Below are positions 31,168 through 34,140 of a stretch of 64,000 bases of DNA, piece after piece. The stretch comes from Streptomyces leeuwenhoekii. Its GTDB lineage: Bacteria > Actinomycetota > Actinomycetes > Streptomycetales > Streptomycetaceae. The notes below the pieces were generated by a model that saw only the letters and a list, made by a program, of their open reading frames with translations, was not told the origin of the DNA and ran no database searches. Where the stretch lies: the NCBI RefSeq assembly GCF_001013905.1, contig NZ_LN831790.1:3672001-3736000 (forward strand). The letters are read 5' to 3'. A program made the translations under genes and the position numbers. Numbering within the stretch: the first letter of the stretch is position 1; every line of letters begins with the position of its first letter.

Positions 31168-31959
31168 CTACCCGGCCCGGGCGACCCGCGCGCGCTCGGG
31201 CTCGGGCTCGTGCTCGCCCACGTCCTCGCCCTCGTACTCGAGGTCGCGCTCGTGCTCGCCCTCGTGCTCGTCGTCCCGCGGCGGGGTCCAGGGGCGGCCC
31301 GCCATCAGGTCGCCCAGGCCCGCCCAGGCGAAGTTCATCAAGGTCGCCGCCGCCTGCCTCGCCGTGACGCCCTCGGTGCCGCCCGCCCAGTCGGCGAGCG
31401 ACTCGGCGGCGCCGACCAGGGCCTCCGCGAGCCCGGCGACGTCCCGCTCGGGCAGGCCGGGGCCGCCCGGACCCGCCGCACCACGGGTACAACCGGGCCC
31501 CTGGGCGGGGGCCTCCCGGGCCGCAGCGGCGATCAACTGCGTCACGAACGCCACGATCTCCTGGCGCATGGCGGCGACCTCGGCGGCGAACGGCTCACCG
31601 TGCGTACGGGCCTGGAGGTGCAGCACCTTCCAGCCGTGCGGATGCCGGGCGGTGTGCGTGAAAAAGGCCCGCAGACCGGCCCAGAGGCGGCGGTCTGCGG
31701 GCAGTCCGGGGCGGACCCCGGCGCGGACGGCCTCGGTCAGCGCCCGCGCCTCGCGGCGGATGCAGGCGGTGAAGAGGTCTTCCTTGGAGTTCAGGTACAG
31801 GTACACCAGCGGCTTGGACACGCCCGCCAGTTCGGCGATCTCGTCCATCGACGCGGCCCGGTAGCCGCGCTCCCCGAAGATCCGTACGGCGGCGTCCAGC
31901 ATCTGCTGCTCACGGACCGCACGCGGCATCCGCTTGGTCTTCCCGGTACCCATGCGCAT
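31168..31959 (-). CDS. TetR family regulator of the lipid module (candidate)
   Basis: 263 residues. HTH near the N-terminus (EQQMLDAAVRIFGERGYRAAS, EIAELAGVSKPLVYLYLNSKEDLF), ligand domain, then an unusual acidic tail with repeated EHE/EGE (about 228-255). The start is 31959 or the ATG two codons later; neither has a clear ribosome site. A near-palindrome CGTACGG-T-CCGTGCG (31963-31977) touches the start and may be autoregulatory. Convergent with maoC, it is the natural candidate for the TTAC...GTAA operators, but the self-site differs, so this is uncertain. Confidence 0.82.
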   Translation of the reverse strand: MRMGTGKTKRMPRAVREQQMLDAAVRIFGERGYRAASMDEIAELAGVSKPLVYLYLNSKEDLFTACIRREARALTEAVRAGVRPGLPADRRLWAGLRAFFTHTARHPHGWKVLHLQARTHGEPFAAEVAAMRQEIVAFVTQLIAAAAREAPAQGPGCTRGAAGPGGPGLPERDVAGLAEALVGAAESLADWAGGTEGVTARQAAATLMNFAWAGLGDLMAGRPWTPPRDDEHEGEHERDLEYEGEDVGEHEPEPERARVARAG

Positions 31960-32008: not shown

Positions 32009-33325
32009 TCAGGCGGCGGCCGGCACCGGTCCCTGGTCCCGCTCCCGGTCCCGCGCCGGCTCCGGCTCGTCGAGCGGCGAGCTGTGGGCCGTGTCGTACG
32101 CCGTGCGGTCGAGCAGGCCCTCGCGGGCCGACACGAGGACCGGCACCAGCGCCTGGCCGGCGACGTTGGTCGCGGTGCGCATCATGTCCAGGATCGGGTC
32201 GATCGCCAGCAGCAGGCCGACGCCCTCCATGGGCAGGCCGAGCGTGGACAGGGTCAGGGTCAGCATGACCGTCGCGCCGGTCAGACCGGCCGTGGCGGCG
32301 GAGCCGACCACCGAGACGAACGCGATCAGCAGGTAGTCGCCGACGTTGAGCTGGATGTCGAAGATCTGCGCGACGAAGATCGCGGCGATCGCCGGGTAGA
32401 TCGCGGCGCAGCCGTCCATCTTGGTGGTGGCGCCGAACGGCACGGCGAAGGACGCGTACTCCTTCGGGACGCCGAGGCGCTCGGTGACCTTCTGGGTCAG
32501 CGGCATGGTGCCGACCGAGGAACGGGAGACGAAGGCGAGCTGGATCGCGGGCCAGGCGCCCTTGAAGAACTGCAGCGGGTTGGCCTTGGCCACGGTGGCG
32601 ATCAGCGCCGGGTAGACCACGAACAGCACGATCGCGCAGCCGACGTAGATGTCGGCGGTGAAGGTGGCGTACTTGCCGATCAGGTCCCAGCCGTAGCTGG
32701 CGATGGCGTTGCCGATCAGGCCGACCGTGCCCAGCGGGGCAAGGCGGATGACCCACCACAGGGCCTTCTGGAGGAGTTCGAGGACGGACTCGCTCAGGGT
32801 GAGGATCGGCTGGGCCTTCTCGCCGAGCTGGAGGGCGGCGATACCGGCGACGGCGGCCATGAAGACGATCTGCAGCACGTTCAGCTCGGTGAACGGCGTG
32901 ATCACGTCGGTGGGCACGATGCCGGTGAGGAAGTCGATCCAGGAGCCGGTCTTCTCCGGCTTGCCGCCGTCGGCCGGGGTGAGGCCGGTGCCGGCGCCGG
33001 GGTTGGTGACCAGGCCGATGACGAGGCCGATGGCCACCGCGATCAGCGAGGTGATCATGAACCAGAGAAGGGTGCGGGTCGCCAGGCGGGCCGCGTTGTT
33101 GACCTTCCGCAGGTTGGTGATCGACACCAGGATCGCGAAGAAGACGAGCGGGGCGACGGCCAGCTTCAGCAGGCCGATGAAGGTGCCACCGACCTTCTCG
33201 AGGGTGGTGACCAGCCAGGACAGGTCCTGGCTGCGGGCCAGCCAGCCGAGCAGGACGCCCAGGACGAGACCGGCGATTATCTGGGCCCAGAAGGGCACCT
33301 TGAAGGACTTCGTGTTCGTGGACAC
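32009..33325 (-). CDS. Dicarboxylate/amino acid:cation symporter (DAACS family)
   Basis: 438 residues, about eight helices plus hairpins of the GltP/DctA/TcyP family. Substrate-site signatures: SRSSVGTMPLT (HP1 serine stretch), TTKMDGCAA (TM7 region, NMDG-like) and TAGLTGATVM. GTG 33325 has ggag 7 nt upstream; an upstream TTG is too close to it. The family takes up glutamate, aspartate, C4-dicarboxylates or L-cystine. A cysteine-containing leader peptide 82 nt upstream points to sulfur-amino-acid control and hence possibly cystine (inference). The C-terminal tail is charged and cytosolic. Confidence 0.9.
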   Translation of the reverse strand: MSTNTKSFKVPFWAQIIAGLVLGVLLGWLARSQDLSWLVTTLEKVGGTFIGLLKLAVAPLVFFAILVSITNLRKVNNAARLATRTLLWFMITSLIAVAIGLVIGLVTNPGAGTGLTPADGGKPEKTGSWIDFLTGIVPTDVITPFTELNVLQIVFMAAVAGIAALQLGEKAQPILTLSESVLELLQKALWWVIRLAPLGTVGLIGNAIASYGWDLIGKYATFTADIYVGCAIVLFVVYPALIATVAKANPLQFFKGAWPAIQLAFVSRSSVGTMPLTQKVTERLGVPKEYASFAVPFGATTKMDGCAAIYPAIAAIFVAQIFDIQLNVGDYLLIAFVSVVGSAATAGLTGATVMLTLTLSTLGLPMEGVGLLLAIDPILDMMRTATNVAGQALVPVLVSAREGLLDRTAYDTAHSSPLDEPEPARDRERDQGPVPAAA

Positions 33326-33407
33326 GGGCAAGCTCCGTTGGGGACGCGCAGAGACGTTGAGGACGCGCAGTGACTGACGTGGAGGACGGCGGGCCGGGGG
33401 GAGGACG

Positions 33408-33509
33408 TCAGGGGCGACAGGTCGCGGACGCGCACCGACAGAGGTCCACGTGCAGGCGCGCCACGAGCGCGACGCTCGGGGGTGTGGTGGGCGCGGCTGC
33501 TGAGTTCAT
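33408..33509 (-). CDS. Cys-containing putative leader peptide upstream of the symporter
   Basis: 33 codons, ATG 33507-33509 to TGA 33408-33410. The C-terminal half reads RLHVDLCRCASATCRP, matching the short streptomycete 'putative leader peptide' pattern R-x-HVDL-x-R-x-[AS]SA-x-C. Three TGT/TGC codons fall within eight codons near the end. No ribosome site precedes the ATG, but a promoter -10 box ends 7 nt before it, so the mRNA would be leaderless. It ends 82 nt before the symporter GTG. Mycobacterial leaderless polycysteine ORFs act as cysteine-responsive attenuators; the same logic is inferred here. Confidence 0.65.
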   Translation of the reverse strand: MNSAAAPTTPPSVALVARLHVDLCRCASATCRP

Positions 33510-33516
33510 GCACAGG

Positions 33517-33546
33517 ACTTTAACACTTGGCCTTTGAGACCCCCAA
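33517..33546 (-). promoter_or_regulatory. Promoter of the leader peptide-symporter transcript
   Basis: On the minus strand: TTGGGG (33541-33546), 18-nt spacing, TAAAGT (33517-33522), then 7 nt to the ATG. The spacing places the transcription start at the leader peptide's initiation codon. Confidence 0.6.
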
Positions 33547-33594
33547 AGCCTCACTTTTAGAGGCAGGGGACGATTCCGTCCATTGAACGCAAAG

Positions 33595-33629
33595 CGCCCC
33601 GGTTTCCGGGGTGTTCGGAAACCGGGGCG
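33595..33629. terminator. Strong terminator downstream of the DUF4229 gene
   Basis: CGCCCCGGTTTCCG (33595-33608) pairs perfectly with 33616-33629 around a 7-nt loop, a 14-bp stem. It terminates minus-strand transcription from DUF4229 and insulates the symporter promoter. Between it and the DUF4229 stop (33630-33739) there is no gene. Confidence 0.88.
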
Positions 33630-33739
33630 TCGGAGTATGTGACGGACCTTACGCGGTCCTTACGCCGCCCTTCACATCCGCGGTCGCTGCGGCCGTTGCG
33701 CCATTGCGCTCGCCACCGAGGGCGCCGAGGGCGCGATCC

Positions 33740-34039
33740 TCAGGAGGTCTGGCCCTGTGCGCGCGCCGTGTCGTCGGCCAGGTCCTCCTGGCTGCGGTTG
33801 GCGTCCAGGTTCGCCTTCATCCGGTCCACCCGGCGCACCACCTGCTCGGAGGCCCGGTCCCGCTCCTGGCGCAGCACGACGAAGCTGATCGGGGCCGAGA
33901 TCACCAGGGCGAGCAGGATGATCCACATGCCGTTGGAGTCACCGAGGCCGCGGGGGAAGACGCCGGAGTAGACGAGGCCCCAGACGACCACGAGGCAGCC
34001 CGCGAAGATCCCGAGGCGCTTCAGCGTGTAGCGGAGCAT
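33740..34039 (-). CDS. DUF4229 membrane protein
   Basis: 99 residues: two membrane helices (about 9-28 and 38-58) and a charged helical C-terminus (RQERDRASEQVVRRVDRMKANLDAN). The pattern LRYTLKRLGIFAGCLVVVW matches actinobacterial DUF4229 proteins, function unknown. ATG 34039 is followed by its own terminator, so it is probably monocistronic. In actinobacteria this small protein often lies close to menaquinone genes, as mqnE is here at 35430. Confidence 0.8.
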   Translation of the reverse strand: MLRYTLKRLGIFAGCLVVVWGLVYSGVFPRGLGDSNGMWIILLALVISAPISFVVLRQERDRASEQVVRRVDRMKANLDANRSQEDLADDTARAQGQTS

Positions 34040-34140
34040 CTCAATCCACTCTTCCGTTCCGAAGGGTCCGTACGTCCCCAAAGGGGCACCCGGTCCAGTG
34101 AAGCACGCCGGGAGACCGATCATGCGGTGGGGGTGTGCGG

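Follow-up and report, generated by a model that had tools for sequence, protein, structure and literature searches.

Comparison across actinobacterial genomes suggests that a DAACS symporter gene of Streptomyces leeuwenhoekii, lying in the 64,000-nt stretch of DNA analysed here (hereafter the window), is controlled by a cysteine-responsive leader-peptide attenuator and that the substrate of the symporter is most likely cystine or a closely related sulfur amino acid. We regard this reading as a whole as probable, and the Cys-responsive leader in particular is well supported by the sequence comparisons. The first-pass annotation had already placed a leader with Cys codons here; the operator-like palindrome, the invariant UGU codon, the apparent selection on the HVDLxR peptide and the C-rich spacer described below go beyond it. 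A widespread cysteine sensor can now be narrowed down to its likely functional elements, a single codon and a handful of residues in the peptide.

In the mechanism that we envisage, ribosomes would start at the 5' AUG of the leader. With ample Cys-tRNA they would complete the leader and depart, and the naked C-rich spacer would let Rho end transcription ahead of the symporter gene. Under Cys-tRNA shortage, the ribosome would halt at the UGU codon at position +11 (counted from the His of the peptide motif), aided by nascent D-L-x-R in the exit tunnel, and symporter expression would go ahead. A palindrome over the -35 region is probably the target of a distinct transcription factor, which probably also acts at the cysteine desulfhydrase gene cds1; in Streptomyces uptake would be set by both factor and leader.

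Leader frame, promoter and related leaders

The leader frame (33408..33509, minus strand) comprises 33 codons, from the ATG at 33509 to a stop ending at 33408, and is probably leaderless. A direct read bore out the initial description of the frame: its C-terminus is RLHVDLCRCASATCRP, three of its final ten codons encode Cys (TGT, TGC and TGT), and 82 nt separate its stop from the symporter GTG at 33325. The frame passes the NF042934 'putative leader peptide' profile (31 bits against a cut-off of 27) and fails the NF042936 profile for the Ms4527A Cys-rich leader (24.4 bits against 45). On the minus strand TTGGGG (33546-33541) is followed by 18 nt, TAAAGT (33522-33517), 7 nt and the ATG. The promoter proposed at first thus keeps its spacing, and its -35 hexamer (33541..33546, often TTGAGG in aligned relatives) is reinterpreted as one arm of a conserved palindrome; the -10 is of the extended type, TGT-TAAAGT (33517..33525). 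A promoter scan with the E. coli consensus found nothing at the leader, and an Rfam search of window positions 32900-34100 gave no match. Upstream of the promoter, the terminator scan detected an intrinsic-terminator-like hairpin (33595..33629, minus strand), which probably belongs to the preceding gene.

Conservation within the genus was assessed in 80 Streptomyces loci that were retrieved with the symporter protein, and not the leader, as query; being the best 80 of 591, they are near relatives. A leader peptide was found within 500 nt upstream of the symporter in 79 of these 80. The sole miss, L081, retains the operator, the -10, the start and HVDLC, and its sequence diverges after HVDLC. 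Together with the window, 78 of 81 loci were parsed in detail, L078, L081 and L103 being dropped for want of an automatic anchor or a leader. A start rule demanding an in-frame ATG or GTG with TAnnnT 4-9 nt ahead of it is satisfied in 76 of the 78 parsed loci from the best 80 of 591 (ATG in 65, GTG in 11), against a background of 196 of 14447 RTG triplets (1.4%) in the parsed Streptomyces loci. All 76 starts share a spacing of 6-7 nt and a TGn extended -10, the TGn not being demanded by the rule. Alignment across streptomycetes, the check suggested at the outset, thus shows that the Cys codons and the predicted leaderless layout are conserved among these best 80 of 591. In S. lividans TK24, according to the accessible part of PMC8079986, 17% of transcripts are leaderless and the -10 is TAnnnT, and among the eight attenuator leaders given there none is of the present type. 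Table 4 of the same paper, as far as it is accessible, lists an S. lividans 'metL' leader before metNIQ, with three Cys plus Met codons, which might respond to cysteine.

Of 26 genomes from the genus, 15 contain an orthologue-class symporter (E < 1e-200) and the others paralogues only. The class-wide search covered 246 genomes, of which 121 gave a match, distant paralogues included, and yielded a set of 50 orthologues (30 assigned and 20 hand-picked from the list; L120 is the window's own). A leader precedes 41 of the 50, 36 by the first rule and five more by a relaxed rule; neither rule found one in the remaining nine (L145, L146, L162-L165 and L167-L169; L168 offers 238 nt upstream). No leader was found upstream of any of 20 hand-picked paralogues (L176-L195, with just 75 nt upstream of L191) or in any of 30 cds1 upstream regions. 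Comparison thus shows that a frame of leaderless type ending in D-L-x-R-x5-C precedes the symporter clade in many actinobacterial families.

Comparison likewise shows that related leaders precede other sulfur genes. In the window's genome, eight NF042934 matches exceed the cut-off, the window included, and a ninth leader falls below it. Seven of the eight other leaders precede sulfur genes according to Pfam or NCBIfam: cysteine dioxygenase, sulfatase, ThiS with CysKM, sulfite/nitrite reductase, ABC genes of taurine/sulfonate type (assigned below curated cut-offs), SfnG and rhodanese. Downstream of the eighth is a glutathione-S-transferase-like gene, judged by eye only. In a sample of the class, NF042934 at E 0.001 had matches in 74 of 98 genomes, 63 of which exceeded the cut-off, and in none of 14 control genomes; relaxing E to 10 brought up weak matches in 10 of the 14 controls, all below the cut-off. 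From this sample 29 loci were parsed, L009 being the thirtieth. Profile searches of eight downstream proteins, the others being read by eye, identified a rhodanese, two sulfite/nitrite reductases, a cysteine dioxygenase, a flavin reductase, a luciferase-like monooxygenase and two DUF4395 proteins. DUF4395 membrane proteins lie downstream of the Cys leaders L227, L230, L252 and L253 (by Pfam for L227 and L253, by eye for the rest), pointing to a sulfur role for DUF4395. The Cys leader L107 (G000:C3:2332457-2332513) stands ahead of cysteine dioxygenase, a Cys-degrading enzyme and a target that fits poorly with induction by Cys shortage.

NF042934, classed as cis_reg_atten, describes peptides with the same C-terminal motif and size, whose relatives stand before sulfur genes; it is a peptide profile, and codon choice, operator and spacer lie beyond its description. 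Canestrari 2020 reportedly described mycobacterial polycysteine leaderless attenuators. From what is accessible of PMC9094748, PMC9031893, PMC4633059 and PMC13236596, such attenuators resemble the window leader in being short frames of leaderless type that have Cys codons close to the stop and lie ahead of sulfur genes. The present leader, by contrast, contains no Cys run, precedes another gene, is accompanied by an operator-like site and, as noted, does not reach the cut-off of NF042936. Our literature search, which read titles and abstract openings and had subscription papers mostly outside its scope, found no report on a symporter leader or a UGU rule, and none under the name 'Ms4527A'.

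The symporter and its substrate

The symporter gene (32009..33325, minus strand) matches PF00375 with 348.8 bits (cut-off 27.9). Its start is best read as the GTG at 33325, which has CGGAG ahead of it, the frame being open to a TTG at 33331. It encodes a TcyP-like insertion, KMDGCAAIYP, and KMDGCA[AS][IV]YP occurs in the window symporter and in all 49 aligned orthologues (50/50). Nine TcyP sequences have GQNGCAGLYP, with the same inserted residue in GCA. TcyP/YdjN of E. coli also resembles the window symporter in belonging to PF00375 and in having SRSS in hairpin 1, with a similar RSS found in SstT and one paralogue as well; identity to TcyP is about 30%, the same as to GltP and DctA.

The leading alternative is that the symporter carries another substrate (cysteate, sulfocysteine, aspartate, glutamate or C4-dicarboxylates) and belongs to the cysteine regulon for another reason, which we consider a real possibility, if the less probable one. 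DctA is the best of the curated transporter profiles with good E-values, followed by GltP and SstT, all below their cut-offs, and the matches include no TcyP model; the closest solved chains are named aspartate transporter. The best tree places the symporter clade with the paralogues (96/83), with long branches and with TcyP sequences that are all near relatives of E. coli TcyP, and joining the clade to TcyP is not rejected (AU p 0.347). Against another substrate stand the TcyP-type insertion, present in 50/50 orthologues and lacking its inserted residue in 19/19 paralogues (L191 dropped) and in E. coli GltP, DctA and SstT, and the presence of both the leader and a candidate operator in common with cds1. 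For the earlier proposal of cystine as substrate, the insertion speaks in favour and the tree is neutral as to a grouping with TcyP; on these comparisons, cystine is a plausible substrate. If so, a likely substrate can be offered for transporters that are annotated only as dicarboxylate/amino acid symporters. Directly after the symporter lies a gene that by eye encodes a TetR-type regulator (31168-31959, minus strand), possibly part of the neighbouring fatty-acid-type genes.

The UGU codon and the peptide motif

No variation is seen at H, D, L, C(+4), R, S(+8) or C(+11) in the 78 parsed leaders (from the best 80 of 591), and a single leader has I for V. Pairwise comparison of the H, V, D, L and R codons in these leaders counted 6137 synonymous and 77 non-synonymous differences, a strong indication that H-V-D-L-x-R (33435..33452, minus strand, H-V-D-L-C-R in the window) is under selection at the peptide level while its codons drift.

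The Cys codon at +11 behaves otherwise. Situated six codons past the R of H-V-D-L-x-R, it is UGU in every examined leader with Cys there: in 78/78 Streptomyces leaders (from the best 80 of 591), in 36/36 leaders of the class list under the first rule (21 of them outside Streptomyces) and 5/5 under the relaxed rule, in 7/7 other leaders of the window's genome with Cys at +11 (L113 lacks it), and in 29/29 NF042934 loci (27 together with L235 and L240). These sets overlap in part, L120 being the window and L158 and L242 one and the same leader. The remaining Cys codons are TGC in 12 of 12 cases in the leaders outside Streptomyces, and 45 TGC and 12 TGT in the 27 NF042934 loci; in the 78 leaders from the best 80 of 591, C(+4) is TGC in 61 and TGT in 17, and C(+6) is TGC in 30 and TGT in 31. 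Among Cys codons of long frames nearby, TGT accounts for 23/237, 38/598 and 26/159 (6-16%). Since the leaders are related, no probability is assigned to the UGU counts; the profile reads peptide sequence and the leader played no part in selecting the symporter loci, so the UGU does not stem from the choice of sequences.

Consequently, the UGU at 33417..33419 (minus strand) is likely to be the single control codon. The stop follows 0-4 codons later in the 78 leaders (from the best 80 of 591), and nine orthologues (L148-L155 and L158) contain just one Cys codon in the segment from H to the stop. Given these nine, the likeness to 'polycysteine' attenuators drawn in the first-pass annotation does not extend to all members. 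Slower wobble decoding of UGU may explain the preference for it over UGC, and the nascent chain may perhaps assist the stall. An RNA polymerase pause motif as the reason for UGU was discarded, as G follows the next base in 18 of 27 cases only. In uORFC-8-2, the cysS attenuator of Rhodobacterales, the uORF likewise contains Cys codons; according to the accessible portion of PMC8632094 they are tandem, with UGC dominant and a terminator, whereas the window leader has UGU at one fixed place.

A more specific proposal is that across the class one leader-peptide family relies on a single codon-specific site, a wobble-decoded UGU six codons past the Arg of D-L-x-R, which forms together with the nascent D-L-x-R in the tunnel a Cys-tRNA-sensitive stall for which one Cys codon is enough, and that this site controls many sulfur genes, among them the gene of a probable cystine importer; we advance it tentatively, as a little short of an even chance. 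If it is true, a synonymous change of UGU to UGC alone should weaken the cysteine response.

A related alternative is an arrest peptide in which nascent D-L-x-R senses, beyond Cys-tRNA charging, a sulfur metabolite or the redox state, with UGU as the arrest site. The conservation of the peptide speaks for it, as a pure codon counter would need Cys codons only, and so do the leaders with a single Cys and the constant distance from motif to UGU. On the other hand, the conserved end is a Cys codon, a simple fit to tRNA sensing, and we judge such an arrest peptide to be rather doubtful.

The spacer, the output step and the operator-like palindrome

Between leader and symporter lies an untranslated, C-rich and G-poor spacer (33326..33407, minus strand), a candidate Rho loading region. 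It includes the symporter Shine-Dalgarno sequence CGGAG (33333..33337, minus strand), 7 nt before the GTG; relatives have GGAG near the same place, and in some, such as L026, a short inverted repeat (CGGA-N5-TCCG) immediately upstream of the GTG contains the Shine-Dalgarno sequence. A stretch with C exceeding G between leader and gene, the hallmark sought for a Rho-dependent attenuator, is found in all 78 parsed Streptomyces loci (from the best 80 of 591), in the 36 listed class-wide leaders and in the 90 nt past all eight other leaders of the window's genome. The median skew of the spacers is 0.233 (78 loci, from the best 80 of 591), compared with -0.044 upstream of cds1 (30 loci) and -0.011 upstream of paralogues (15 loci). 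Against random stretches, 51 of the 78 spacers (from the best 80 of 591) exceed the 95th percentile and 13 the 99th, and within 10 kb, both strands included, 0.06% of stretches equal the window's best 78-nt stretch.

A classical attenuator with a GC hairpin and a U run was rejected, as the terminator scan found no intrinsic terminator in the window spacer; in the 78 spacers (from the best 80 of 591) T content is at most 4 per 8 nt in 67 and at least 5 in 11. The accessible part of PMC1262725 describes actinobacterial cys-operon leaders that likewise have Cys codons near the stop and no terminator found, with Rho weakly proposed; its Cys cases come from Mycobacterium, P. acnes and B. longum, with none from Streptomyces and none ahead of a symporter. 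Rho-dependent termination is our best, tentative guess for the output step. In Rho-dependent attenuation at tnaC, a short peptide is followed by a Rho-type spacer, and by analogy the window leader may work in a similar manner. A ribosome stalled at +11 would leave most of the C-rich region downstream of it, which makes it hard to see how the stall would block Rho.

Translational attenuation, in which the leader region pairs with the symporter Shine-Dalgarno sequence and a stalled ribosome frees it, has a precedent in cysteine genes of M. smegmatis, according to the portion of PMC13236596 at hand. In single-strand folding predictions without pseudoknots or proteins, however, the unpaired probability of the Shine-Dalgarno sequence is 0.311 in real and 0.319 in shuffled sequences (76 leaders, from the best 80 of 591) and lies below the shuffled mean in 31 of the 76. 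The predicted stall raises openness in 44 of the 76 (from the same best 80 of 591), and in the window openness falls from 0.54 to 0.39. Sequestration by the leader was accordingly set aside as the output step, and we consider translational attenuation unlikely.

The palindromic operator-like site CTTTGGGGGTCTCAAAG (33532..33548, minus strand; consensus by comparison CTTTGAG-N3-CTCAAAG) overlaps the -35. A third half-site (33554..33558, minus strand) is AAAAG here, with one mismatch, and CAAAG in most relatives, and the alignment reads CAAAG-N5-CTTTGAG-N3-CTCAAAG over the -35. The palindrome occurs with at most two mismatches in 76/76 Streptomyces promoters (from the best 80 of 591), is exact in 44 and lies 21-22 nt from the leader start; 69 of the 76 have an exact CAAAG third half-site. 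In a separate set from the genus, 12 of 15 have it with at most two mismatches, L132 has three, and it is absent from L133 and L134. In other families (L135-L169) the best match has at least three mismatches.

In the window's genome just two sites have at most one mismatch, one in the symporter promoter and one upstream of cds1, which encodes the L-cysteine desulfhydrase Cds1 (NF052478, 609 bits against a cut-off of 600). The gene was found in 38 of 41 genomes, and 30 loci were fetched: 17 have the palindrome with at most two mismatches, one with three and 12 with 5-6, while 0 of 600 shuffled control stretches have it with at most two. This shared candidate operator would tie symporter uptake to cysteine breakdown. 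By eye, the palindrome at cds1 (L171/L196, G000:C3 ~7081335-7082569) lies farther upstream of a TATGAT-like box, so a common factor might serve as activator of cds1 and as repressor of the symporter. A survey of 15 kb of frames around cds1 revealed several regulators by eye, none of which was assigned to the palindrome. That the operator regulates while the leader is minor or vestigial would accord with the palindrome's presence in all 76 Streptomyces promoters (from the best 80 of 591) and before 17 of 30 cds1 genes, and is very unlikely in view of the other families (L135-L169), which have the leader without such a palindrome, and of the strong selection on the leader peptide. Upstream of cds1 in some Streptomyces (L215-L218, L220 and L221), a second type of promoter, with CTATGG followed by CAAAG and then by GTTTG and GCAGGTG, was seen by eye in place of the palindrome.
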